Made by a program: the position numbers and the translations under genes
Shown here: positions 1,316 through 33,503 of the stretch, in pieces
Numbering within the stretch: the first letter of the stretch is position 1
Layout: each line of letters starts with the position of its first letter
Assembly (NCBI RefSeq): GCF_012273015.1
Contig: NZ_CP050954.1
Location: 1,612,001 to 1,676,000 of the forward strand
From: Hymenobacter sp. BT18
GTDB lineage: Bacteria; Bacteroidota; Bacteroidia; Cytophagales; Hymenobacteraceae
DNA length: 64,000 nucleotides
Reading direction: 5' to 3'
The notes under the pieces: model-generated
Told to the model about the DNA's origin: nothing
Database searches by the model: none
What the model saw: only the letters and a program-made list of their open reading frames with translations

Positions 1316-2911
1316 TTAGAAGATGTCGCGGAAATACTCGGTGAACAGGTCGCTGGTGTTGGTTGTGGCCGGCTTGGTGCGGGCGTCGGTCGTTGCATAT
1401 TCGCTATCCTGATAGCCGGCGGCCTGCGACTTCACCCGGTAGTAATAGCGCGTGTCGGCTGTCAGCCCGGCGTCTATGATGGTCGTTTCGGGGCCGGTGT
1501 AGGCTACCACAAACCCGGAGAAGTTGCTGTTGATGCTACGCTCCAGCACGTAGGTAACGCCTGACTCGGGCGCATTCAGGGGCAGCAGCCAGCTCATCTG
1601 GTTTTCTGTGCTGCTGATGCCCTGGCCGAAGAAGTCACTGGTCGCATCCAGCTTTGGCGTGCTGGTTGGGCGGGTAATGATAGCGGAGGCCGTGCCGCTG
1701 CCCACGGCGTTCTTAGCCGTTACCGTAAACTCGTACACCTTGCTGGGTGTGAGTCCGGTCACAGCGACGCTGGTATTGGTGTTTACCCCATCGGCAAACA
1801 ATGCCCAGGTCGCATCTCCCTGCAGGCGGTAGCGCACCTCATAGTCGGTGATGGGTGAGCCCCCATCTGCCGGCGGTGACCAAACCAGATCCATGGTGGT
1901 GGTCGTGGGCGTGGCAATAATGCCACTAACCTGCCCAGGCACCGTGTTGGCGCCCGTAACGGTGAAACTCACCGAGGCGCTCAGCTCCGAGGCCAGGCCC
2001 TCATTGTCGGTGGCTATGGCCGTGAGCTGGCGCGTGCCCGTCACAGAAGGGGTAATCACCACCGAGAAGTTCGGGCCGTTGCTGGCCACGCCGCGGCTCA
2101 CACCATCCAGGAAGAATTCCACGGTGGCCACCGTGCCATCGGGGTCGGTAGCAGTTGCGGAGAGCGTGATGCTGTTGCCCGCGGCCACGCTAGGGGCCGA
2201 AGTACTGAGCGCGGTTACCGAGGGCGCCAGGTTGGCGGCCGTCACCGTCACCTGCTGGCTGGCCGAGAGCGTGGCGTTGCCGGAGTTATCCGTGGCCCGG
2301 GCCTGCACGGCGAAAGTGCCGACTTCGGTGGGCGCCCATTCGACGATGTATGGGGCATTTACATCCGTACCTACGCTGGCGCCATTCACCAGCAGCTCCG
2401 TCGCATTTACCAAGCCATCGGAGTCCGTAGCCGTGATGGTGGCCGTGATGGTCTCCCCTACCCGGACGCTGGCGCTGCTCAGCACGAAGGAAACGGACGG
2501 GGCGCTGTTGGCAGCTGGAGTAGTTCCCCGGTTCTGCAGAAGCCAGATATTGTAGCTGTGCTGATCTGAAAAGGCCGGGTGCGAGCCGTATGTATTGGCC
2601 GCTATCAGGGTAAAGGCATTGCCCACTGGCTCCCAGTGCGCAAGCTGCGTGCCCCACTCGGGCAAGGTGGCGGCCGTCACACCATCGGCTTTCTTGCACT
2701 CGGCCAGGGCCCGGAGCTTGAGCAGGCGCCCCGACAAGCCCGGCGCCTGCTGCTCACTCACTTCCTTGGTCAGGAAACGCGGCTTGCCTTCGTAGCGGTT
2801 GTTGGGTGCCAGCAGCTCGGCCAGGCTGTGCGCCCGGTAATCTGCGTCGTGGTTTTCATCCACGCCCATGTTGCGCGGGCTGGTCCAGATAGGAGAACCT
2901 TGAACAGACAT
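1316..2911 (-). CDS. Multidomain Ig-like / fibronectin type III surface protein
   Basis: 531 residues. Residues 1-130 are a unique region with Trp/His-rich motifs. Two bacterial Ig-like (Big_9-type) domains follow, about 135-230 and 230-320, each with the TATDxDG pattern. A clear FnIII domain is at about 323-415 and a second FnIII-like unit at about 420-515, ending in a short tail. No signal peptide or T9SS C-terminal domain is seen, unlike the host's exported Ig proteins, which fits a phage tail-associated binding protein rather than a secreted host adhesin (inference). The neighbouring genes are spaced 3-11 bases, indicating one operon. The ligand is unknown. Confidence 0.75.
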   Translation of the reverse strand: MSVQGSPIWTSPRNMGVDENHDADYRAHSLAELLAPNNRYEGKPRFLTKEVSEQQAPGLSGRLLKLRALAECKKADGVTAATLPEWGTQLAHWEPVGNAFTLIAANTYGSHPAFSDQHSYNIWLLQNRGTTPAANSAPSVSFVLSSASVRVGETITATITATDSDGLVNATELLVNGASVGTDVNAPYIVEWAPTEVGTFAVQARATDNSGNATLSASQQVTVTAANLAPSVTALSTSAPSVAAGNSITLSATATDPDGTVATVEFFLDGVSRGVASNGPNFSVVITPSVTGTRQLTAIATDNEGLASELSASVSFTVTGANTVPGQVSGIIATPTTTTMDLVWSPPADGGSPITDYEVRYRLQGDATWALFADGVNTNTSVAVTGLTPSKVYEFTVTAKNAVGSGTASAIITRPTSTPKLDATSDFFGQGISSTENQMSWLLPLNAPESGVTYVLERSINSNFSGFVVAYTGPETTIIDAGLTADTRYYYRVKSQAAGYQDSEYATTDARTKPATTNTSDLFTEYFRDIF

Positions 2912-2914
2912 AAA

Positions 2915-3796
2915 TTAGGCTGTTTTCTTGACCGTCACGGTCAGTTTATAATTGGTAGCCGTGAAGTCGGCATTGTTCTGCCACAGGCCATAATCCTGGT
3001 CAGGATAAACCGCGAAAGGCAGCGTGCGGGCCTCTTCCGAGAAAGTGCCCAGGATCTGCCCGTTGTCCGGGTCTTTGATGCTGGTGATGGTAAAGCCCGC
3101 CGGCACGGCGATGCTCATGCGCTGGCCGGCGGCCGTGAAGGTCATCTCCACGTCGACGGTGCCGTTCAGCGCGGCCGCACGCGCCAGGCTACGGCTGGTG
3201 AAGGCGGAAACCGTCGCGGCATTGGCGCCGGCGGCAGCAGCGCCCCACATGAGCGGGAAGACATAGCTGGTGCTTACCTCCTTCTCGATATCCGGATCAT
3301 CGGCTTGGTCGGAATCGGCAAACCACACCTGCAGGGTATAAGTATCCGCCAACGTGCCCGTATCCTGGTAGCTGAAGGAGTTGGTTTCAGGGGCCTGCCA
3401 GGGCTGCCCGTTCTTCAGCAGCTGGCGCAGGCCCACCGGGTTGTCATTGACCGTAATCGCCCCGCTGATGGTGTAGCTGGCCTGCTTGCCTGCCTCGAAA
3501 GTGCTGGCGCCGCTGAAGCTGAGGCTGGCCACTGTGAGCTTGGTGCCATAGAACACGGCCTGGATCCACGCGCCCACGTCGTCGGTGTTGGGATTGAAAC
3601 CGATGCTGGTGTTATTGGTCTTGATAGGCGCTTTGATGGCCGCATTGATGGCGCTGCCCCCATCCGGATCCGGCAGGGAGTCGGCAACGTCCTGGGCAAA
3701 CTCCTGCATCGTCTCCTCGATGATGGCCAGGGTGTTATTGGGCTGAAACTTGAGCAGCCACTTCTGGGCCAACTGGGACGGGGTGAGCTTAGCCAT
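2915..3796 (-). CDS. Hypothetical protein, phage-like module
   Basis: 293 residues, not recognised. The N-terminus (LTPSQLAQKWLLKFQPNNTL) is helical and hydrophilic. The middle (about 95-200) is beta-rich with Ig-like spacing, and the C-terminal region (about 215-290) contains a short YPDQDYGLW motif and ends in a beta strand. There is no signal peptide. Its stop lies 3 bases before the start of the Ig/FnIII gene, and its start shares one base with the upstream stop. Probably a structural or attachment protein of the element; this rests on context only. Confidence 0.6.
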   Translation of the reverse strand: MAKLTPSQLAQKWLLKFQPNNTLAIIEETMQEFAQDVADSLPDPDGGSAINAAIKAPIKTNNTSIGFNPNTDDVGAWIQAVFYGTKLTVASLSFSGASTFEAGKQASYTISGAITVNDNPVGLRQLLKNGQPWQAPETNSFSYQDTGTLADTYTLQVWFADSDQADDPDIEKEVSTSYVFPLMWGAAAAGANAATVSAFTSRSLARAAALNGTVDVEMTFTAAGQRMSIAVPAGFTITSIKDPDNGQILGTFSEEARTLPFAVYPDQDYGLWQNNADFTATNYKLTVTVKKTA

Positions 3797-4470
3797 TACT
3801 GAATGGTGTAAATAAAGCGGAAACCAGAGTTGAGCACCAGCGTGCGGCCAGGAGGTACCAGGGCCAGCAACTTGCCCTTATTGTCGCGCAGCTCCACCGA
3901 GCCGCCGGTGCCCTGCTGCAGCTGCACGGCGTACTCAAGGCCACGGCCACTCACCGTCCAGGAGCCCAGGTAGGGACGCACGCGGCGCAGCGTCTCGCCT
4001 GAGAGCGTCCAGTCGTAGTTGTTGCGGTTAGGGAATTCAGCCCCGGTGTCGAGCACATCTTTCCAGCTAAGCGGCTGCTCGGGCGTGCCCACCAGCCAGA
4101 CGTAGCCGTTCCGGTCACGGTAGAGCACCACCAGCTTCTCCCCATCGAGCAGCTCCAGGCCTGCGGCCAGGCCCTCGGTGTTCCGGGCCAGCGTGCCGGT
4201 GAGCTGCTGCTTGAACTGCCCCTGGTGCCGGCCACCCTCCGTGGGCGTTTGCTTATGGCGCACGGTGTGGCGCACCGACACCAGCTGGTACCACACGGCG
4301 CCAGTAGCCATGGAGAGGGAGTTGGTAACCAGTAGTGGCCCCACGTCGCTGAGCTGCGTGAGCACGTTGCGGGCTGGCGTATACCACAAAGCCTCTATAC
4401 CACCGTGGTTGGCGGCTGGCTCCTGCGCCAAGTTGCGCGGCTCTAAAAAGAAGGGTAGGCTATCCGGCAT
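3796..4470 (-). CDS. Hypothetical protein, phage-like module
   Basis: 224 residues, not recognised. The ATG at 4470 (MPDSLPFF) is preferred over the one at 4494 because it reduces the overlap with the upstream gene to 11 bases. The C-terminal 60 residues are beta-rich with a PPGRTLVLNSGFRFIYTI end, reminiscent of a small jelly-roll or beta-sandwich. Residues about 55-145 contain many Trp/Tyr and charged residues. No signal peptide or membrane helix. It is the second gene of the minus-strand operon that starts at 5104. Confidence 0.6.
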   Translation of the reverse strand: MPDSLPFFLEPRNLAQEPAANHGGIEALWYTPARNVLTQLSDVGPLLVTNSLSMATGAVWYQLVSVRHTVRHKQTPTEGGRHQGQFKQQLTGTLARNTEGLAAGLELLDGEKLVVLYRDRNGYVWLVGTPEQPLSWKDVLDTGAEFPNRNNYDWTLSGETLRRVRPYLGSWTVSGRGLEYAVQLQQGTGGSVELRDNKGKLLALVPPGRTLVLNSGFRFIYTIQ

Positions 4471-26815: not shown

Positions 26816-26891
26816 ATCCGGAAGTCCCGCTCACCCCGTACCTTGCAGCCTCTCTTCAGTTCTGCCCCGTATGCCCTCTTCCCCCGCTCCC

Positions 26892-27590
26892 ATGCGCTGC
26901 CTTATCGTCGACGACGACCCGTTAGCGGTACAGATTGTTGGCAACTGCATCACCAATACACCCTTCCTGACGGCCGTGGGCCATTACCATAGTGCTGTAG
27001 AGGCGGCCGAGCACCTGCGCACTTCCCCCGTCGATTTGCTTTTTCTGGACGTGGAGATGCCGCTGATGTCGGGCTTAGAGCTGCTGGGCACTTTTCCCAA
27101 TCCTCCCCTGGTGGTACTCATCACCTCCAGTAAGGAGTATGCCGTGGCCGCCTTCGAGTTTTCAGTGGTCGATTACCTGGTGAAGCCCATCAGCTATGCC
27201 CGGTTTCTGAAGGCCGCGCAAAAAGCCCTCGACCAGTTTTCCAGCACTGGCACTGAGGCCGAACCAGCCCCCGACTCGGCGGATTTCACCTTTGTGAAGG
27301 TAGATAACAAGCTGGTGAAAGTGCTGTTTGATGAAGTCCGCTACGTGGAGGCCCTGGGCGACTACGTGCACATCGTCACGGGCCAGAGTAAGCTCATTGT
27401 GTACAGCACCATGCGGGCCGTGGAGGAGAAGTTTCCGCCGGCTTTGTTTGTGCGCGTGCACCGCTCGTTCATCGTGGGGCTGAAGTGGATTCAGGCCATT
27501 GAAGACAATGCCATTATCATCGACCAAAAGTCCATTCCCATTGGGCAGACATACCTGCGGGATGTAACGCAGCGCTTGAATAAGTTCTAG
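26892..27590 (+). CDS. LytTR response regulator
   Basis: 232 residues from ATG 26892 (MRCLIVDDDP; an ATG 21 bases upstream is also possible). Receiver domain with acidic pocket DDD, phospho-Asp in LLFLDVEMPLMSG, and the Lys in VKPI; then a LytTR DNA-binding domain from about residue 125, with YVEALGDYVHI and FVRVHRSFIVGLKWI motifs. It binds DNA to control target promoters. The neighbour upstream is an Hpt gene, suggesting a phosphorelay; no kinase is adjacent. Confidence 0.9.
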   Translation: MRCLIVDDDPLAVQIVGNCITNTPFLTAVGHYHSAVEAAEHLRTSPVDLLFLDVEMPLMSGLELLGTFPNPPLVVLITSSKEYAVAAFEFSVVDYLVKPISYARFLKAAQKALDQFSSTGTEAEPAPDSADFTFVKVDNKLVKVLFDEVRYVEALGDYVHIVTGQSKLIVYSTMRAVEEKFPPALFVRVHRSFIVGLKWIQAIEDNAIIIDQKSIPIGQTYLRDVTQRLNKF

Positions 27591-27613: not shown

Positions 27614-29113
27614 TTAGCTCTGTTCTGGCTGCATCAGCTGCAGAGCCAGCTGCCACATGTTCTCGTAGGGAATGATTTCGGTACCGGCAAAGGCCTCACC
27701 AGGCATGGGCGTCTGCGCCAGCTTAGCGAGTAGCGGCTGCCCTTTACGCCGACACACCACCACATCGAAGTTTTCTGTGACCGTGAGCTGCAGCAACCGG
27801 AAAAACAGCCGGCTGCGCAGGGCCGCCGCCTCCCGCAGGTGGGTACCGGCATATTTGCGCAAGCCTTCGAGGCGGGAAAGCAGTTCCTCCAGGTTGCGCT
27901 GCTTGAGGTAGTACATGAACTGCAGAATGAGAATGGCCACGTTCAGGCCCTGCTTATCGCGGCTGTATTCGGGAAGCACGTGCATCAGCTGGGCAAAATG
28001 CAGGTTGCGCACCGGTAGGTTTTCCGGCGCCACAAAGTTCAGGTAAGCGCGGTATAGCTCCCACCGCTGCTGGGCAGCCGTGCGCAGCTTGCTAAAAAAC
28101 GGATTGTCGAGGGCCATCTTTAGCAGCTCGGCGGCCTTGCGGTACTCGCCGGCATGCATAGCCAGCAGCAGGTAGTGCTCCATGAACACAAACCAGTTGC
28201 CCGACGACCGGTGGAAGGCACTGAGATACTGCGCCGCCAGGCGGAGCCCTTCCTGCAAGCGCCGCGCCTGCAAGTGAGCAAACACGCTGTAGAACATATT
28301 GTAGCGCCGGTCAAAGCGCTTGGCGTTCAGCTTACCCGCTTCCCAAAGCGTTTCCGATTCACTGGTCGTCCGGATGATGCCTTCGTAGTCCCCAATCAAC
28401 TCCTGCTGCATCAGACGCAGCTTGTACAGATGGTCGTACACCCGAAAGGTGGCAGCTCGCTGGTACAAAGCCTCCGTTTGCTGCACAAACTCCGGCAGCT
28501 TGGTGAGCAGTTGCTGCCGGATACGTACCTGGTCGGAGAGCATCATCTTGGCTTCCCAGAAAATGCGGCTGGCTTCCTGCTCAATCTGCAGGAGGTTTTC
28601 AGCCTGCGCCAGCTGCTTTATAACCCGTCGGTAATGGCCTACCTGCCGCTGTTCAGCATATATCTGGCGCAAGCCCAGCAGGCTAGTTACCTCATGCTGG
28701 GTGAATTCGCCTTCGGAGGCCAGCCGCTGGCACCGGCGGTACAACTTCTCCGATACTACATACTCCCCTTCTCGCAGTAGCACCCCGGCCTGGTAAAGTA
28801 AATCCAGGCACTCCTGTTCATAGCGGCGGTATACCGGGTGGCGGGCATCGGTGTAATCCAGAAAAAATAAGTGACTAAATAGCTTGAGCTGCACCCGCGA
28901 CTTGAGCTTGCGCAGCGCGGTCTGGCTAACAGCGCTGGTACTGCCGTAAAGCTCCCGGGCTGCCTGCAGCGTGGTTATATTGTCGCGGGTCTGCAACAAC
29001 TGTAACAACTGCAGCTCTTTACTCTGACCTGGTTTCTGGGTAAAATCCAGTAACGGTGTTACTTTTAAGCGCCGATTGGTAACAATGCGGGCAATAGACG
29101 TCAATTCCTTCAT
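27614..29113 (-). CDS. TPR-like helical protein, possible peptide-responsive regulator
   Basis: 499 residues, family not recognised by name. Residues about 30-85 look like a winged-helix or HTH (LQLLQLLQTRDNITTLQAAR then ALRKLKSRVQLKLF). The rest is a long helical array with TPR-like spacing, for example LLGLRQIYAEQRQVGHYRRV at about 146 and EHYLLLAMHAGEYRKAAELL at about 318. No signal peptide, so cytoplasmic. It diverges from the 60-residue peptide gene at 29454, which precedes an oligopeptide transporter. In Gram-positive bacteria TPR proteins of the RRNPP group bind re-imported peptides; a similar role here is inference from layout and fold. Homologous families could also be ordinary TPR scaffold proteins. 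Confidence 0.55.
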   Translation of the reverse strand: MKELTSIARIVTNRRLKVTPLLDFTQKPGQSKELQLLQLLQTRDNITTLQAARELYGSTSAVSQTALRKLKSRVQLKLFSHLFFLDYTDARHPVYRRYEQECLDLLYQAGVLLREGEYVVSEKLYRRCQRLASEGEFTQHEVTSLLGLRQIYAEQRQVGHYRRVIKQLAQAENLLQIEQEASRIFWEAKMMLSDQVRIRQQLLTKLPEFVQQTEALYQRAATFRVYDHLYKLRLMQQELIGDYEGIIRTTSESETLWEAGKLNAKRFDRRYNMFYSVFAHLQARRLQEGLRLAAQYLSAFHRSSGNWFVFMEHYLLLAMHAGEYRKAAELLKMALDNPFFSKLRTAAQQRWELYRAYLNFVAPENLPVRNLHFAQLMHVLPEYSRDKQGLNVAILILQFMYYLKQRNLEELLSRLEGLRKYAGTHLREAAALRSRLFFRLLQLTVTENFDVVVCRRKGQPLLAKLAQTPMPGEAFAGTEIIPYENMWQLALQLMQPEQS

Positions 29114-29453
29114 CCAACTTCTCTGCCTAAGTACGTTTCCAGTTTCAGTGAGGCGTGCATGCCTGCCAGAATGGGCCGTTAATGTCTAAGAGAAACGCGC
29201 TACATGCTACCTAAACTCCCCGGTTTTTTGACCTCCGGATGTCACAAACCTAGCATGAATTTCACAAAGATTCACATTTTACATCGAGTATTATTAGGCT
29301 TAAATCAATTAAACCAGATTTGCCTAGCAAAAGAATGCAATTTCTATGAATCAAAGTTATAGTCCTCAATTATAGGTTTTCTTCCTTTACTGACGTATTT
29401 TTTTAGAGGAAATTCGGATCAAATCTTCAATCACTCTCAAAACTGCGTCCGAC
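29114..29453. other. Divergent intergenic region, AT-rich
   Basis: 340 bases separate the divergent TPR-like gene and the peptide gene. It is clearly lower in GC than its surroundings. On the minus strand TAGGTTTG (29252-29245) matches TAnnTTTG about 130 bases before the TPR-like start. On the plus strand TAGGTTTT (29373-29380) is a near match about 75 bases before the peptide start. No strong palindrome was found. Confidence 0.5.
29245..29252 (-). promoter_or_regulatory. -7 element TAGGTTTG for the TPR-like gene (candidate)
   Basis: Full match to the Bacteroidota -7 consensus on the minus strand, giving a leader of about 125 bases before the start at 29113. The upstream TTTG is closer than usual, so spacing is not ideal. 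Confidence 0.35.
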
Positions 29454-29636
29454 ATGTTAGAACTTATTGCCCTCGCTCTGTTGCAGCTAGCTACCTTCTT
29501 CACGAATCCTAGTGCAACCACTACGGCGCCTAAGCCAACTAACACGCTCAATACCGGTGGAGGTAGCTGGGGCGAAGGTCAAGCAACTGAAACCGGTGGT
29601 GGCAGTTGGGGTGAAGGCCAGGTGAAAAAGCCATAA
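29454..29636 (+). CDS. Small peptide with duplicated TGGGSWGEGQ motif
   Basis: 60 residues. A hydrophobic N-terminus (about 1-16, MLELIALALLQLATFF) without an obvious basic start is followed by a Thr/Pro/Ala linker and two C-terminal repeats of period 13, T-G-G-G-S-W-G-E-G-Q at residues 34-43 and 47-56, ending KKP. The two repeats differ at six of ten codons, all synonymous, strong evidence that the peptide sequence itself is under selection and the gene is real. No lipobox or known RiPP leader was recognised. It is 74 bases upstream of a peptide-binding lipoprotein gene and divergent from a TPR-like gene. A secreted signal peptide precursor, RiPP precursor or small surface protein are the options; the first fits the neighbours best (inference). 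Confidence 0.75.
   Translation: MLELIALALLQLATFFTNPSATTTAPKPTNTLNTGGGSWGEGQATETGGGSWGEGQVKKP
29553..29621 (+). repeat. Two-copy coding repeat of the small peptide
   Basis: Copies at 29553-29582 and 29592-29621 encode the same ten residues, with six third-position changes and no amino-acid change. Confidence 0.9.
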
Positions 29637-29710
29637 TCCTGGCACTGCGCCTGCGCCATTCCAAATCTTGGGTATCTTGCCCGCAGCCGGCTAAATCCGG
29701 CCCCATCGGC

Positions 29711-31426
29711 ATGTTCGGATTATGGTTTCGCACGGCGTTGCTTCTTGTGCTGTTGGCGTCCTGCCAGGCACCGTCCCCTCCTACGGCCCAGGTACGCATT
29801 CGTTGGGCGCGCGACCCGGAGTCGCTGCATCCGCACACGCTGGCGAATGCCATGGCCCTTCAGGCCGTTAACCTCACGTATCAAAGCCTGCTGGCAGTTG
29901 ATGCTGTACACCAGCGGTTTGTTCCTTTATTAGCCGACTCATTGCCCGCTGTGCGGCGCAACGAGTCGGCTTCTTTTTTCACCTACCGGATTCGTTCGTC
30001 CGCTACCTGGGATGATGGGCAGCCCATTCTGGCCAGCGACGTAGCCTTTACGCTCCGAGCTATGCGCTGCCCCGGCCTGCCCAATGAGCGCATGCAGGCG
30101 CAGTACGGGTTTATCCAGGATATTTACATTTCCCCGAAGGATGCGCGCCGCTTCACCCTGGTATGTGCCCCCTACGCCCCGGACTACGTAACGCTGTCGG
30201 GCGACTTTGCTATTCTGCCGGAACACCTGCTCGACTCAGGCCGTATTCTGCGCCGCATTCCGCTGGCCCGCCTGGATTCGGCGGCGACCCGCCAGCCCGC
30301 AGTAGCGGCCGTAATTGGCCGCCTTGCCGCAGCAGGCCTCGAACGCTCCCCCGGCCGGTACGGTAGCGGCCCCTACCGACTGGTTGACTGGAAGCCAGGC
30401 CAGCAGCTGACACTGGAGCGCAAGCGCGCTTGGTGGGCCGATCCACTGCAGCGCACGGTTCCTCAACTGTTAGCCCGCCCGCAGCGCATCAGCTTTCAGA
30501 TTATTCCGGACCAGACGACGGCGCTGCTCGCCCTCCGTCGTAATGAGGTAGATGTTTACGCAGGAATTCCACCAGCCGATTTTGCGCGGCTTCAGTACTC
30601 CGCCTCTGATACAGCCCGCCTGGGCCTCTACACCCCCGATTCTTACGAAATGATTGTGGCGGGCTACAACACCCGGAAGCCTACCTTCAGTAACGCCCTT
30701 GTTCGCCAGGCCATCAGCCATCTTATCAACGTGCCCGGCATCCTCAAGGGCGCCGTGCACAACCTGGGCTATGCCAGTGTAGGCATGATCAGCCCACATC
30801 AACTCCTTTTCTATAACGATAGTCTGCAGGCCGATACTTTTGACCCCGCCGCTGCAACAGCCCTGTTACGCCGAGCGGGCTGGCGCCAAACGGCCGACGG
30901 CAAGTGGCAGAACCCCGCGTACGCAGTATCCCCCCTGGCTTTCACCATCAGCTACCGGGCCGGAAACGCTGCGTATGAGTTCATTGCCCTGCAGCTTCGG
31001 ACCGCGGCCGCCCGCATTGGTATTACAGTGCAGCTACAGCCTGTAGAAAGCTCCCTGCTTACGCAGCAACTGCAGACCGGAAACTTCGATTTGTACCTGC
31101 GCTCAATCGTTGGCAACCCGTTTGCCCACAACTTCATCCCTCTGCTGCACTCCCGTAGTACCGGCGAAGCGGGCGGCAATTACACTGGTTTTGGCTCTCC
31201 CGCTACTGATCGGCTACTGGAGCGACTGGCGGCGGCCGAGGATACGGCCACCAAGCGCACATTGCTCCGCCACTTTCAACGCATCATTCAACGGGAACGG
31301 CCTCTGCGGGTGTTGTACTTCACTCGCAACCCCATTGCCATAACCAAGCGCTTTACCAACCTGGGGCTATCGAGCCTGTCGCCGGGGTATGAGGTAACGG
31401 GGTTTGTGGAGCAACCAAGGCCCTAG
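29711..31426 (+). CDS. Peptide/oligopeptide ABC transporter substrate-binding lipoprotein (SBP family 5)
   Basis: 571 residues. Lipoprotein signal with lipobox LLASC (Cys about residue 18). The SBP_bac_5 fold is recognisable: RIRWARDPESLHPHTLANA, then YRIRSSATWDDGQPILASDVAFT, and a central YGSGPYRLVDWKPGQQLTLE, typical of OppA/DppA. It would capture peptides in the periplasm and hand them to the permeases encoded 3 bases downstream. The peptide gene lies 74 bases upstream and is probably co-transcribed. Whether it binds that peptide is untested. Confidence 0.9.
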   Translation: MFGLWFRTALLLVLLASCQAPSPPTAQVRIRWARDPESLHPHTLANAMALQAVNLTYQSLLAVDAVHQRFVPLLADSLPAVRRNESASFFTYRIRSSATWDDGQPILASDVAFTLRAMRCPGLPNERMQAQYGFIQDIYISPKDARRFTLVCAPYAPDYVTLSGDFAILPEHLLDSGRILRRIPLARLDSAATRQPAVAAVIGRLAAAGLERSPGRYGSGPYRLVDWKPGQQLTLERKRAWWADPLQRTVPQLLARPQRISFQIIPDQTTALLALRRNEVDVYAGIPPADFARLQYSASDTARLGLYTPDSYEMIVAGYNTRKPTFSNALVRQAISHLINVPGILKGAVHNLGYASVGMISPHQLLFYNDSLQADTFDPAAATALLRRAGWRQTADGKWQNPAYAVSPLAFTISYRAGNAAYEFIALQLRTAAARIGITVQLQPVESSLLTQQLQTGNFDLYLRSIVGNPFAHNFIPLLHSRSTGEAGGNYTGFGSPATDRLLERLAAAEDTATKRTLLRHFQRIIQRERPLRVLYFTRNPIAITKRFTNLGLSSLSPGYEVTGFVEQPRP

Positions 31427-31429
31427 CCC

Positions 31430-32506
31430 ATGGCAAGGAGGATTTTGTATGGGGTGCTCAGGCCCTTGTTCTGGCTTTGGCTGCTGGTCTCGGTTATCTT
31501 CCTGCTAACTCGGCTGGCCGCGCCCACCCCAACAGAGCAACTGGGACACCCTACTACAGCTTCGGTAGCCTCCCCGGAAAAGCTCCGGGCGGCCCAATGG
31601 GCCCTGCGTCACCGGCTGGGGCTGGACCTGCCCTTGTTTTACTATTCTGTGCAGCCCCACCCGCGCTATGGCAGTTGGATTCCCTCGGCCCAGTGGCATG
31701 GTAGTGGTAACCAGTACCACCAGTGGCTACGACAGCTGGCAGCCGGCAGCTTGGGCAACTCCTACCGCGACGGCCGCCCGGTGACTACAGTGCTGCTGGA
31801 TACAGTACCCAATACCTTATTGCTCACCTTGCCGGCTGCCATTGGCACGATTGGTTTTTCCTTATGGGCGGGGCTTTGCCTGACGGGCCGTCGCTGGTGG
31901 CAGCGCTGGGTGTTGGGTTTGTGCGTAGGCCTAGATGCAGTTCCGCTTTTTCTAGTGGCCACCACGCTGGTGCTGGTACTTGCCAATCCTGATGCGCTTA
32001 ACCTCTTTCCTGCCTACGGAGCACCTGAGGCCTTATTTGAGACGCCCGGGCTCTGGACCAGAGCCACTCACTATATGTATTACTTCTTCCTTCCTATTAG
32101 TAGTCTGTTGGTGGTGACGGTGCCCGGATTTATCCTGCAGCTCACGGCGGCCCTGAATCGGGAGGTAACCATGCAGTACACTATCACCGCTCGTGCCAAA
32201 GGCCTAAGCAGTGAGCAGGTATTGCGGCAACATCTGCTCCGTAACGCCCTGCTGCCGTTTATCACTTTGCTTACCGACCTGCTTCCGGCCCTGCTGGCCG
32301 GGGCCGTAGTAGTAGAGGTCATTTTTGCGCTACCAGGCATGGGACGGTTGTTGGCAGAGGCCGCTGCCACCCGCGACCATCCCATACTGTTGGGTGGTGT
32401 GCTGCTCATAGCCATGGCCCGGCTGCTCTCTTATTGGTTGGCCGATGGACTCTATGGTTGGGCCGACCCCCGATTACGCAGCACCAGCACGCCCGCTCAT
32501 GCCTAA
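31430..32506 (+). CDS. Peptide ABC transporter permease, OppB/DppB type
   Basis: 358 residues with about six membrane segments, first at about 10-28, later ones at about 123-350. The EAA-like cytoplasmic loop ITARAKGLSSEQVLRQHLLR (about 248) with the RNALLP end is the contact site for the ATPase. It starts 3 bases after the binding-protein gene. A long periplasmic loop follows the first membrane segment, normal for OppB. No ATPase genes (OppD/OppF) follow in this operon, so ATP-binding subunits must be encoded elsewhere. Confidence 0.9.
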   Translation: MARRILYGVLRPLFWLWLLVSVIFLLTRLAAPTPTEQLGHPTTASVASPEKLRAAQWALRHRLGLDLPLFYYSVQPHPRYGSWIPSAQWHGSGNQYHQWLRQLAAGSLGNSYRDGRPVTTVLLDTVPNTLLLTLPAAIGTIGFSLWAGLCLTGRRWWQRWVLGLCVGLDAVPLFLVATTLVLVLANPDALNLFPAYGAPEALFETPGLWTRATHYMYYFFLPISSLLVVTVPGFILQLTAALNREVTMQYTITARAKGLSSEQVLRQHLLRNALLPFITLLTDLLPALLAGAVVVEVIFALPGMGRLLAEAAATRDHPILLGGVLLIAMARLLSYWLADGLYGWADPRLRSTSTPAHA

Positions 32507-33503
32507 ACAACCTTGGTATTGGTGGGTAGCCCTGGGTTGGTTGGGAATACTTCTCCTACTCTCACTGAGCGCCCCATTCTTTCCACTCCCCTATCAACCG
32601 GGGCAAACGGATGTTTACGCTATTATCAGTCCACCCGGGGCATCACCCGGGCACGAGTTGGGTACCGATGCTCTCGGCCGTGACGTACTGACCGAGCTGC
32701 TCTTTGGCGCCCGCACCCTCCTGCAAGTGAGCCTGCCCGCTACCTTGTTGCTCACGGTAGTGGCAACGCTACTTGGAACGAGTGCGGGCTATTGGGGCAA
32801 CAACCGGTGGTACTTGCCGCGGGCTACGGGCGTAGCAGCCCTGTACGGGCTTGTCATTTGCCTACTATATCTGCCCTTGACCGGCCAAGAGGAAAAAGTT
32901 GTGCTGCCGTGGGGGCTCTGGCTGCTGCTGATGCCGTTACTGAAGCTTCTGGTGGGAAAAACGCGTTGGGGGCAAGTCAGGAAGCCGGCCCCACTCGACA
33001 CTTGGATACTTACCTTGGCGGCTTTGCTCAGCTCGGTTCCCAGGCTTATTCTGCTGGTGGGCCTAGCGGCGGTGCTGCCTTTGTCCCCGGTTTCGGCAGT
33101 GCTGGTGCTGGGCCTTCTGTTCTGGCCCGGCATGATGCGGCTGATACGGGCCGAAATGCGCCGCATACGCGCCTTGCCCTATATTGAGGCCGCGCAGGCT
33201 CTGGGGCTTACAGAGCCGCAAATCCTGGTTCGGCACGCAGCTCCAGCCCTGAAAGGCCTAGTCCTCTCTTCTTTTCTGCTTTATCTGGCCCTGGTTATTG
33301 CGCTGGAAACTACGCTGTCGTTTTTGGGTATTGGCCTACCAGCTGAGCACGCCAGCTGGGGCCACTTGCTGGCCGCTGCCCGCCTGGCGCCGGAAGCATG
33401 GTGGGTAGTGCTTTTCCCAGGCGGGTGCCTGCTGCTCACACTTCTCAGCATCCGCGTGTTGGCTGGCAGTCAAAAAAATAAGGCCGGTAGCCACTTAAAA
33501 TAA
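32499..33503 (+). CDS. Peptide ABC transporter permease, OppC/DppC type
   Basis: 334 residues from ATG 32499 (MPKQPWYW), overlapping the OppB-like stop by 8 bases; the upstream in-frame ATG at 32445 would overlap far more. About six membrane segments and the loop YIEAAQALGLTEPQILVRHA (EAA signature EAAxxxG...HxxP), and GTDALGRDVLTELLFGARTL, typical of the family. With the OppB-like protein it forms the membrane channel for peptides. It is the last gene of the operon. Confidence 0.9.
   Translation: MPKQPWYWWVALGWLGILLLLSLSAPFFPLPYQPGQTDVYAIISPPGASPGHELGTDALGRDVLTELLFGARTLLQVSLPATLLLTVVATLLGTSAGYWGNNRWYLPRATGVAALYGLVICLLYLPLTGQEEKVVLPWGLWLLLMPLLKLLVGKTRWGQVRKPAPLDTWILTLAALLSSVPRLILLVGLAAVLPLSPVSAVLVLGLLFWPGMMRLIRAEMRRIRALPYIEAAQALGLTEPQILVRHAAPALKGLVLSSFLLYLALVIALETTLSFLGIGLPAEHASWGHLLAAARLAPEAWWVVLFPGGCLLLTLLSIRVLAGSQKNKAGSHLK

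Follow-up and report, generated by a model that had tools for sequence, protein, structure and literature searches.

Intracellular receptors for peptide pheromones are known from the RRNPP or RRNPPA systems (Rap-Phr, NprR-NprX, PlcR-PapR, PrgX and Rgg-SHP), in which a small precursor gene adjoins the gene of a receptor with a tetratricopeptide repeat (TPR) superhelix and Opp-type import is used. The accessible portions of the publications consulted, among them PMC10075063, PMC9765709 and PMC11343458, treat peptide signalling of this kind as belonging to Bacillota or Gram-positive bacteria. In this study, a 64,000-nucleotide stretch of the chromosome of Hymenobacter sp. BT18 (hereafter the window; the chromosome is a single contig of 4.69 Mb) was analysed for a locus in which a TPR-like gene diverges from a short peptide gene and oppABC-type genes. 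This locus is probably a peptide-pheromone circuit of the quorum-sensing type, native to Bacteroidota and working like RRNPP signalling. Computed support comes from the linkage of the genes, the architecture of the precursor, selection acting on each copy of the peptide, co-variation of peptide and TPR protein, and a promoter module; export, processing, import, binding, DNA binding and the direction of regulation are inferred.

Several properties are shared with RRNPP systems, beginning with a small precursor gene that adjoins the gene of a TPR-superhelix receptor. The receptor, all-helical and 499 aa long, has TPR-type helices and falls within the 250-500 aa that a passage of PMC10075063 gives as the length rule for RRNPP receptors. 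Opp-type import has its counterpart in oppABC genes, for which transport is predicted, and some RRNPP precursors are multi-copy, with up to six pheromone copies in some RRNPPA precursors (PMC9765709, in the part available) and up to eight per precursor mentioned in the available part of PMC11343458. The host phylum here is Gram-negative, however, the receptor has no detectable sequence homology to RRNPP receptors, the opp genes form part of the locus itself, most precursors in the genus are multi-copy (68/89, with up to 20 units), and the leader is hydrophobic but without basic residues. Because of the receptor sequence and the leader, we do not file the system as a member of RRNPP; passages of PMC10075063 and PMC9765709 describe SHP-type precursors, exported by PptAB, as an exception to the basic-leader rule within RRNPP.

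In the arbitrium system of Bacillus phages (AimR-AimP), a receptor and a small peptide are encoded beside an integrase gene, as are the phage copies described below, which in two of three contigs also have repressor-type and excisionase-type neighbours; AimR is also among the fold matches of our receptor (Z 13.9-14.4). Unlike arbitrium, the receptor here has about 500 aa, no match was found among INPHARED phages, and the window locus is chromosomal. The tandem Phr precursors of phages phi3T and phi105 also hold several copies per precursor, and their receptors are of the same fold class, but phi105 has two copies (PMC11343458, in the part available), whereas up to 20 occur here, with the protein kept while codons diverge. 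A reading of the window made from the sequence alone (the sequence-only reading) had known of no established equivalent in Bacteroidota, and no counterpart was found in full-text searches of the open-access literature, a coverage outside which bioRxiv lies. Bacteroidetes are mentioned once, as a gut phylum, in the available part of the RRNPP_detector paper (PMC10075063), and the available parts of four reviews (PMC9611604, PMC10931677, PMC9179481, PMC13271334) describe no Bacteroidota system of this type.

The same reading had proposed a TPR-like gene, a divergent short peptide gene, a peptide-binding lipoprotein gene and two Opp-type permease genes, all of which are present in the window at the following positions:

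27614-29113, minus strand: all-helical protein of 499 aa, TPR-like, the proposed intracellular receptor of the peptide and regulator (open reading frame (ORF), genomes survey, AlphaFold2 model, VIA-align)
29114-29453, no strand: intergenic region between the divergent genes, 340 nt, 39% G+C, with a GTCAC box and a TTCCTTTAC box (sequence)
29454-29636, plus strand: peptide precursor, 60 aa, with a hydrophobic N-terminus MLELIALALLQLA without Lys or Arg, a linker and two copies of TGGGSWGEGQ (ORF)
29553-29582, plus strand: repeat unit 1, TGGGSWGEGQ, proposed signal (sequence, codon comparison)
29592-29621, plus strand: repeat unit 2, TGGGSWGEGQ, proposed signal (sequence, codon comparison)
29711-31426, plus strand: OppA-type substrate-binding lipoprotein, SBP_bac_5 (Pfam E 3.8e-56), LASC lipobox by eye (Pfam, co-occurrence)
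31430-32506, plus strand: OppB-type permease, BPD_transp_1 (Pfam E 2.7e-24)
about 32499-33503, plus strand: OppC-type permease, BPD_transp_1 (Pfam E 1.3e-19)

The oppC frame is listed from 32445, and an ATG at 32499 overlaps the end of oppB.

Linkage and distribution of the locus

The TPR gene was identified in 112 of 120 genomes of the genus and in 196 of 204 genomes of the family, including all six genera (6/6); among named relatives, the closest one found was Hymenobacter guriensis, whose TPR protein is 88% identical. Co-occurrence of the peptide, TPR-like and Opp genes, which the sequence-only reading had named as a check, was borne out by the survey. The positive genus genomes (112/112) all match oppA strongly, at E 3e-91 or better, and none of the eight negative ones does (0/8), seven of which have a match at E 2e-12 or worse and one none; matches of this weaker kind resemble a paralogue that is also present in many other genomes. 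The eight TPR-less genomes, perhaps one clade and including one that is only 82% complete, could represent few events.

A peptide ORF was found in 118/118 distinct loci, 263-441 nt from the TPR start, and this recurrence excludes a chance ORF. The locus set comprised 121 records (L001 and L002 repeat the window, and L032 and L004 share a contig), in 119 of which a fixed rule called the peptide ORF, with L056 and L058 added after inspection. Counts of units, leaders, intergenic regions and modules refer to the 117 loci other than L001, L002, L004 and L032, which places one real locus (peptide as in L003) outside the set; the counted loci represent 90 of the 112 positive genus genomes, and four more (G007, G082, G096, G099) entered the survey of extra copies.

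The order TPR gene, divergent peptide gene, oppA, oppB and oppC is common to loci of the six genera, and both permease genes are present in 80/81 long loci, the exception being L100, where two TPR copies stand around one oppA. Genome G082 has an internal stop in the TPR gene and an interrupted oppA as well, a double damage that would be expected for coupled genes unless it reflects assembly errors. No ATPase gene was seen by eye in the ORFs around the window locus, and PF08352 has two matches elsewhere in the same genome, separated by about 1.1 kb, in open frames of 727 aa and probably belonging to one protein; together these suggest that the importer relies on a shared Opp-type ATPase. A LytTR response regulator gene (26871-27590, plus strand, by family match), which we do not take as a core part, neighbours the TPR gene; it adjoins 48/81 long loci, none of them (0) among the 20 from other genera.

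Repeat units, co-variation and alternative explanations

Gly/Trp units number one in 43 of the 117 precursors and two or more in 72, with a maximum of 20 (L079); the other two have zero units by the counting rule, yet GGSTTW or GGTTTW is visible in them. Multi-copy precursors, predominant in the genus, also make up 4/8 in the sister group g6 and 0/20 in the other four genera. The leader is conserved, with Gln 11 in 107/117 and Leu 9 in 104/117 precursors. Units of one gene share 98% identity on average, those of different genes 59%.

Codon differences between units of the same gene are mostly silent (4211 synonymous and 605 non-synonymous), with the synonymous excess present in 67/72 multi-copy genes, the reverse in 0 and no difference in 5; within-gene unit pairs are non-independent, and the direction of the bias is uniform throughout. 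Between neighbouring units, cores differ by 905 synonymous and 95 non-synonymous changes and linkers by 310 and 259, and the window's own two repeats differ in five core codons, all of them synonymous. This synonymous excess indicates that all copies are constrained to encode one and the same peptide. The identity of units within a gene is not explained by recent copying alone, and units that are identical in protein and divergent in codons are what a multi-copy pheromone precursor would be expected to contain.

The distance between units correlates with TPR distance at r 0.67 and with OppA distance at r 0.62 in 111 of the 117 loci, the other six having a short or interrupted OppA stretch. In partial Mantel tests, the association of peptide with TPR protein given OppA is 0.35 (p 0.001, permutation), while that of peptide with OppA given TPR protein is 0.05. 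The co-variation fits a receptor and its ligand, to judge from these sequence distances, and unequal rates of the proteins could contribute. A segment-wise comparison of TPR protein and peptide found no hot spot of co-variation.

A bacteriocin-like product could likewise have multi-copy precursors whose units differ by species. On that view the peptide would be secreted as an antimicrobial or surface peptide, and OppABC and the TPR protein would have roles in uptake, immunity or the control of expression. We regard this as unlikely. Eight peptides compared with NCBIfam, including its models of ribosomally synthesized and post-translationally modified peptides and of bacteriocins, had no match at E up to 1, and neither a modifying enzyme nor a dedicated exporter was seen among the neighbouring ORFs, which are annotated in part. 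The variation of the peptide follows that of the TPR protein and not that of OppA, and no opp gene turned up in those stretches of phage DNA that were read, which are parts of contigs.

That Opp importers are common, and that members of the TPR family elsewhere have other neighbours and no peptide was found there, would agree with a nutritional oligopeptide importer lying beside an unrelated small gene, the TPR protein being an ordinary regulator of peptide uptake. Such an arrangement seems quite unlikely, as it leaves the co-occurrence, synteny, selection on each unit and peptide-TPR co-variation unexplained. Highly unlikely is a peptide that binds nickel or another metal and is imported with it by a Nik/Opp-like importer under control of the TPR protein: a nickel model heads the NCBIfam rows of the binding protein (88 bits, cut-off 393) and many units end in Asp/Glu-Gly-His, but many others have no His or Cys (QGGGGWGGD in L022, GGTGNWDTRD in L052), the recurring residues Gly and Trp are not metal ligands, and the phage stretches read, again, yielded no opp gene.

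Promoter module, receptor fold and proposed mechanism

The region between the divergent genes contains a recurrent module. In 132 instances a GTYAC box precedes CCTTT by exactly 22 bp, and TTTGT lies behind CCTTT at 29 bp in 132 and at 30 bp in 35. When a GTYAC box at 14-30 bp plus CCTTT was counted, 70/117 loci had it near the peptide gene, 67 farther upstream and 42 in both places, compared with at most 3, 6 and 0, respectively, in 200 mononucleotide shuffles. The exact module GTYAC-N17-CCTTT-N24/25-TTTGT has 142 matches in 80/120 genus genomes, and a backward control gave three. The eight TPR-less genomes have zero matches, which is weak evidence because most matches sit at the locus that these genomes lack; an examination of nine phage and outer loci did not find the module. 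Bacteroidota promoters have -33/-7 elements. The spacing of CCTTT and TTTGT resembles such a promoter and would put GTYAC at the position of an activator site. The TPR protein may bind the module, and another regulator could do so instead.

Sites away from the locus, separated from locus sites by hand according to position, account for 43/142 matches in 35 genomes, and nine of them are found behind oppC, at a distance of 4.7-5.3 kb. In the long loci with such a site (8/8), the module is followed by a gene for a small protein of 70-86 aa (L067, L075, L079, L080, L084, L085, L087, L089); this protein, without a Pfam family, is encoded behind oppC in 39/81 long loci, including other genera, and not in the window. 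Other genes that recur behind off-locus sites encode secreted proteins containing a carboxypeptidase-regulatory-like domain, a TPR protein of 687 aa in which histidine-kinase-like domains score below cut-off, and a protein of 81 aa that belongs to no family; several sites have no evident gene.

The TPR-like protein has no Pfam or NCBIfam match above cut-off, and Pfam TPR_12 was recorded in 6/25 members (best E 0.0003). An AlphaFold2 model from a five-sequence alignment has helices throughout, with a predicted local distance difference test score (pLDDT) of 73 and a predicted template modelling score of 0.63, and its confident part is the C-terminal superhelix at about residues 200-460. When 959 chains were compared by VIA-align, the first seven rows, at Z 17.2-16.6, belonged to Rap of pLS20, Rap of phi3T (Z 17.0), a Rap with CSF, and NprR; Rap of phi105 stood lower, at Z 15.8. 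Foldseek placed Rap of pLS20 second (E 0.013), behind a CCR4-NOT subunit, and the fold search of BFVD gave no match at E 0.001 or less. These comparisons show a class of fold rather than homology.

An HTH-like (helix-turn-helix) N-terminus had also been proposed. RRNPP receptors have an N-terminal HTH DNA-binding domain, with the exception of Rap, which lacks it. Helices are indeed predicted, three of them within residues 32-83, but the HTH itself is a weak lead: LysR-type HTH_1 has E 0.055, or E 0.014 if residues 1-90 are taken alone (15.8 bits, cut-off 26.6), and among 22 members HTH_1 (E 0.014) and HTH_24 (E 0.018) each appear in 1/22. The N-terminal domain modelled alone has a pLDDT of 57 and 29 fold matches at E 3.8-9.7, mostly bromodomains; two OmpR-type DNA-binding domains among them (root-mean-square deviation about 3) were not used as evidence. 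The structural check suggested with the initial proposal thus returned the superhelix and the Rap/NprR rows in first place, but did not establish a DNA-binding domain. Co-occurrence and fold ranking support an RRNPP-like reading, and function as a system is what the following scheme would add.

The small gene would encode a precursor, from which the Gly/Trp units would be cut out as signal peptides that build up on the outer side of the inner membrane. Re-import of these peptides may be the task of the dedicated OppABC, for which an Opp-type ATPase with its gene elsewhere would supply the energy, and the cytoplasmic TPR superhelix protein would bind them. With or without peptide, this protein might alter transcription at promoters with GTYAC 22 bp upstream of CCTTT, the presumed targets being the peptide/opp operon itself, as feedback, and a small set of other genes.

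Several observations weigh against this scheme. The unrelated TPR protein LGN reaches Z 16.1 in VIA-align, a near tie with Rap and NprR, and Foldseek gave no match at E 0.001 or less. Among PDB sequences, which include the Rap and NprR structures, phmmer returned 0 rows and a profile returned three unrelated rows (best E 0.019). No confident DNA-binding domain was found by Pfam, PDB sequence or fold searches of the N-terminus, where the NACHT-type helical domain NNH6 outscores the HTH models (best E 0.0026, 4/22). Basic residues are nearly absent from the leader, with Lys or Arg within residues 2-12 in only 6/117 precursors, so export by the Sec route is not evident. The exact module is absent from the window's own genome, where its boxes are degenerate. 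A survey of 15 extra or second TPR copies or loci found 8 with a peptide ORF and 7 without (one at a contig end), and the peptide-less copies may be orphan receptors or have another role. Finally, 15/21 order-level relatives fail the relaxed peptide screen described below.

Phage copies and relatives outside the family

Three IMG/VR contigs encode a TPR relative, 35-37% identical to the window protein, with a divergent peptide, beside an integrase gene. Receptor and peptide lie at 2345-4143 in L121, at 2554-4059 and upstream in L122, and at 7678-9503 in L161, and the peptides end in DGGSGEWVER, NGGSGTWHEKL and NGGTGAWSEKL. In L121 and L122 the receptor is surrounded by integrase, repressor-type and excisionase-type genes, to which L121 adds an O-like replication gene, while L161 has the integrase beside the receptor plus an endolysin gene. 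Structural phage genes are present on the contigs of L121 (head protease, terminase, portal) and L122 (head protease, tape measure), and the HK97 capsid model had no match in these two contigs. A search of INPHARED returned nothing for either the L121 receptor or the window receptor. The integrases suggest a temperate life, and the hosts are probably Bacteroidota. The gene placement resembles that of arbitrium, and by this analogy receptor and peptide may tune lysogeny in these phages.

Our judgement is evenly balanced on a broader proposal, namely a phylum-wide, independently evolved class of intracellular pheromones in Gram-negative Bacteroidota, in which a precursor with a hydrophobic leader diverges from a TPR receptor, with tandem-copy precursors and arbitrium-like lysogeny communication in temperate phages. 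If true, a major Gram-negative phylum would have its own pheromone language, the words of which could be read from the repeats and, in synthetic form, tested at once; communication of this type may then extend to phages whose hosts are not Bacillus-like.

A profile search at E 1e-10 identified TPR relatives in 114/390 genomes of the order (family included) and in 22/395 genomes of the phylum. A strict peptide screen passed 9/43 outer loci (phage 0/3) and 19/800 random places; it missed the phage peptides because it banned His and applied a hydrophobicity threshold. The relaxed screen, designed after these misses were known, passed 6/21 order-level, 8/19 phylum-level and 3/3 phage loci compared with 58/1200 random places. 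Of the loci that passed, L125 has a match that looks like a chance ORF, and in L122 the passing ORF is not the 43-aa peptide. Some outer relatives have a divergent small ORF with the same leader type and other C-termini, such as DEDGW or IDR(R/T/L)ED. Other relatives lie beside unrelated genes, so that the TPR family extends beyond the peptide system.

Further copies and neighbourhoods were noted in the course of these surveys. Hymenobacter sp. BRD128 has a plasmid copy of the TPR gene (L147, NZ_CP053909.1, 62156-63670), possibly an orphan receptor, beside which no peptide was found, and in genus group g5 (L152 (G168), L153, L055, L057-L060) two to four tandem TPR paralogues lie at the locus. 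The order-level relative in L125, from a 9-Mb genome, diverges from an apparent type I polyketide synthase gene. Four distant members of the phylum (L205, L207, L210, L217) have small ORFs with the hydrophobic leader and a shared C-terminal IDR(R/T/L)ED or FDRYED.

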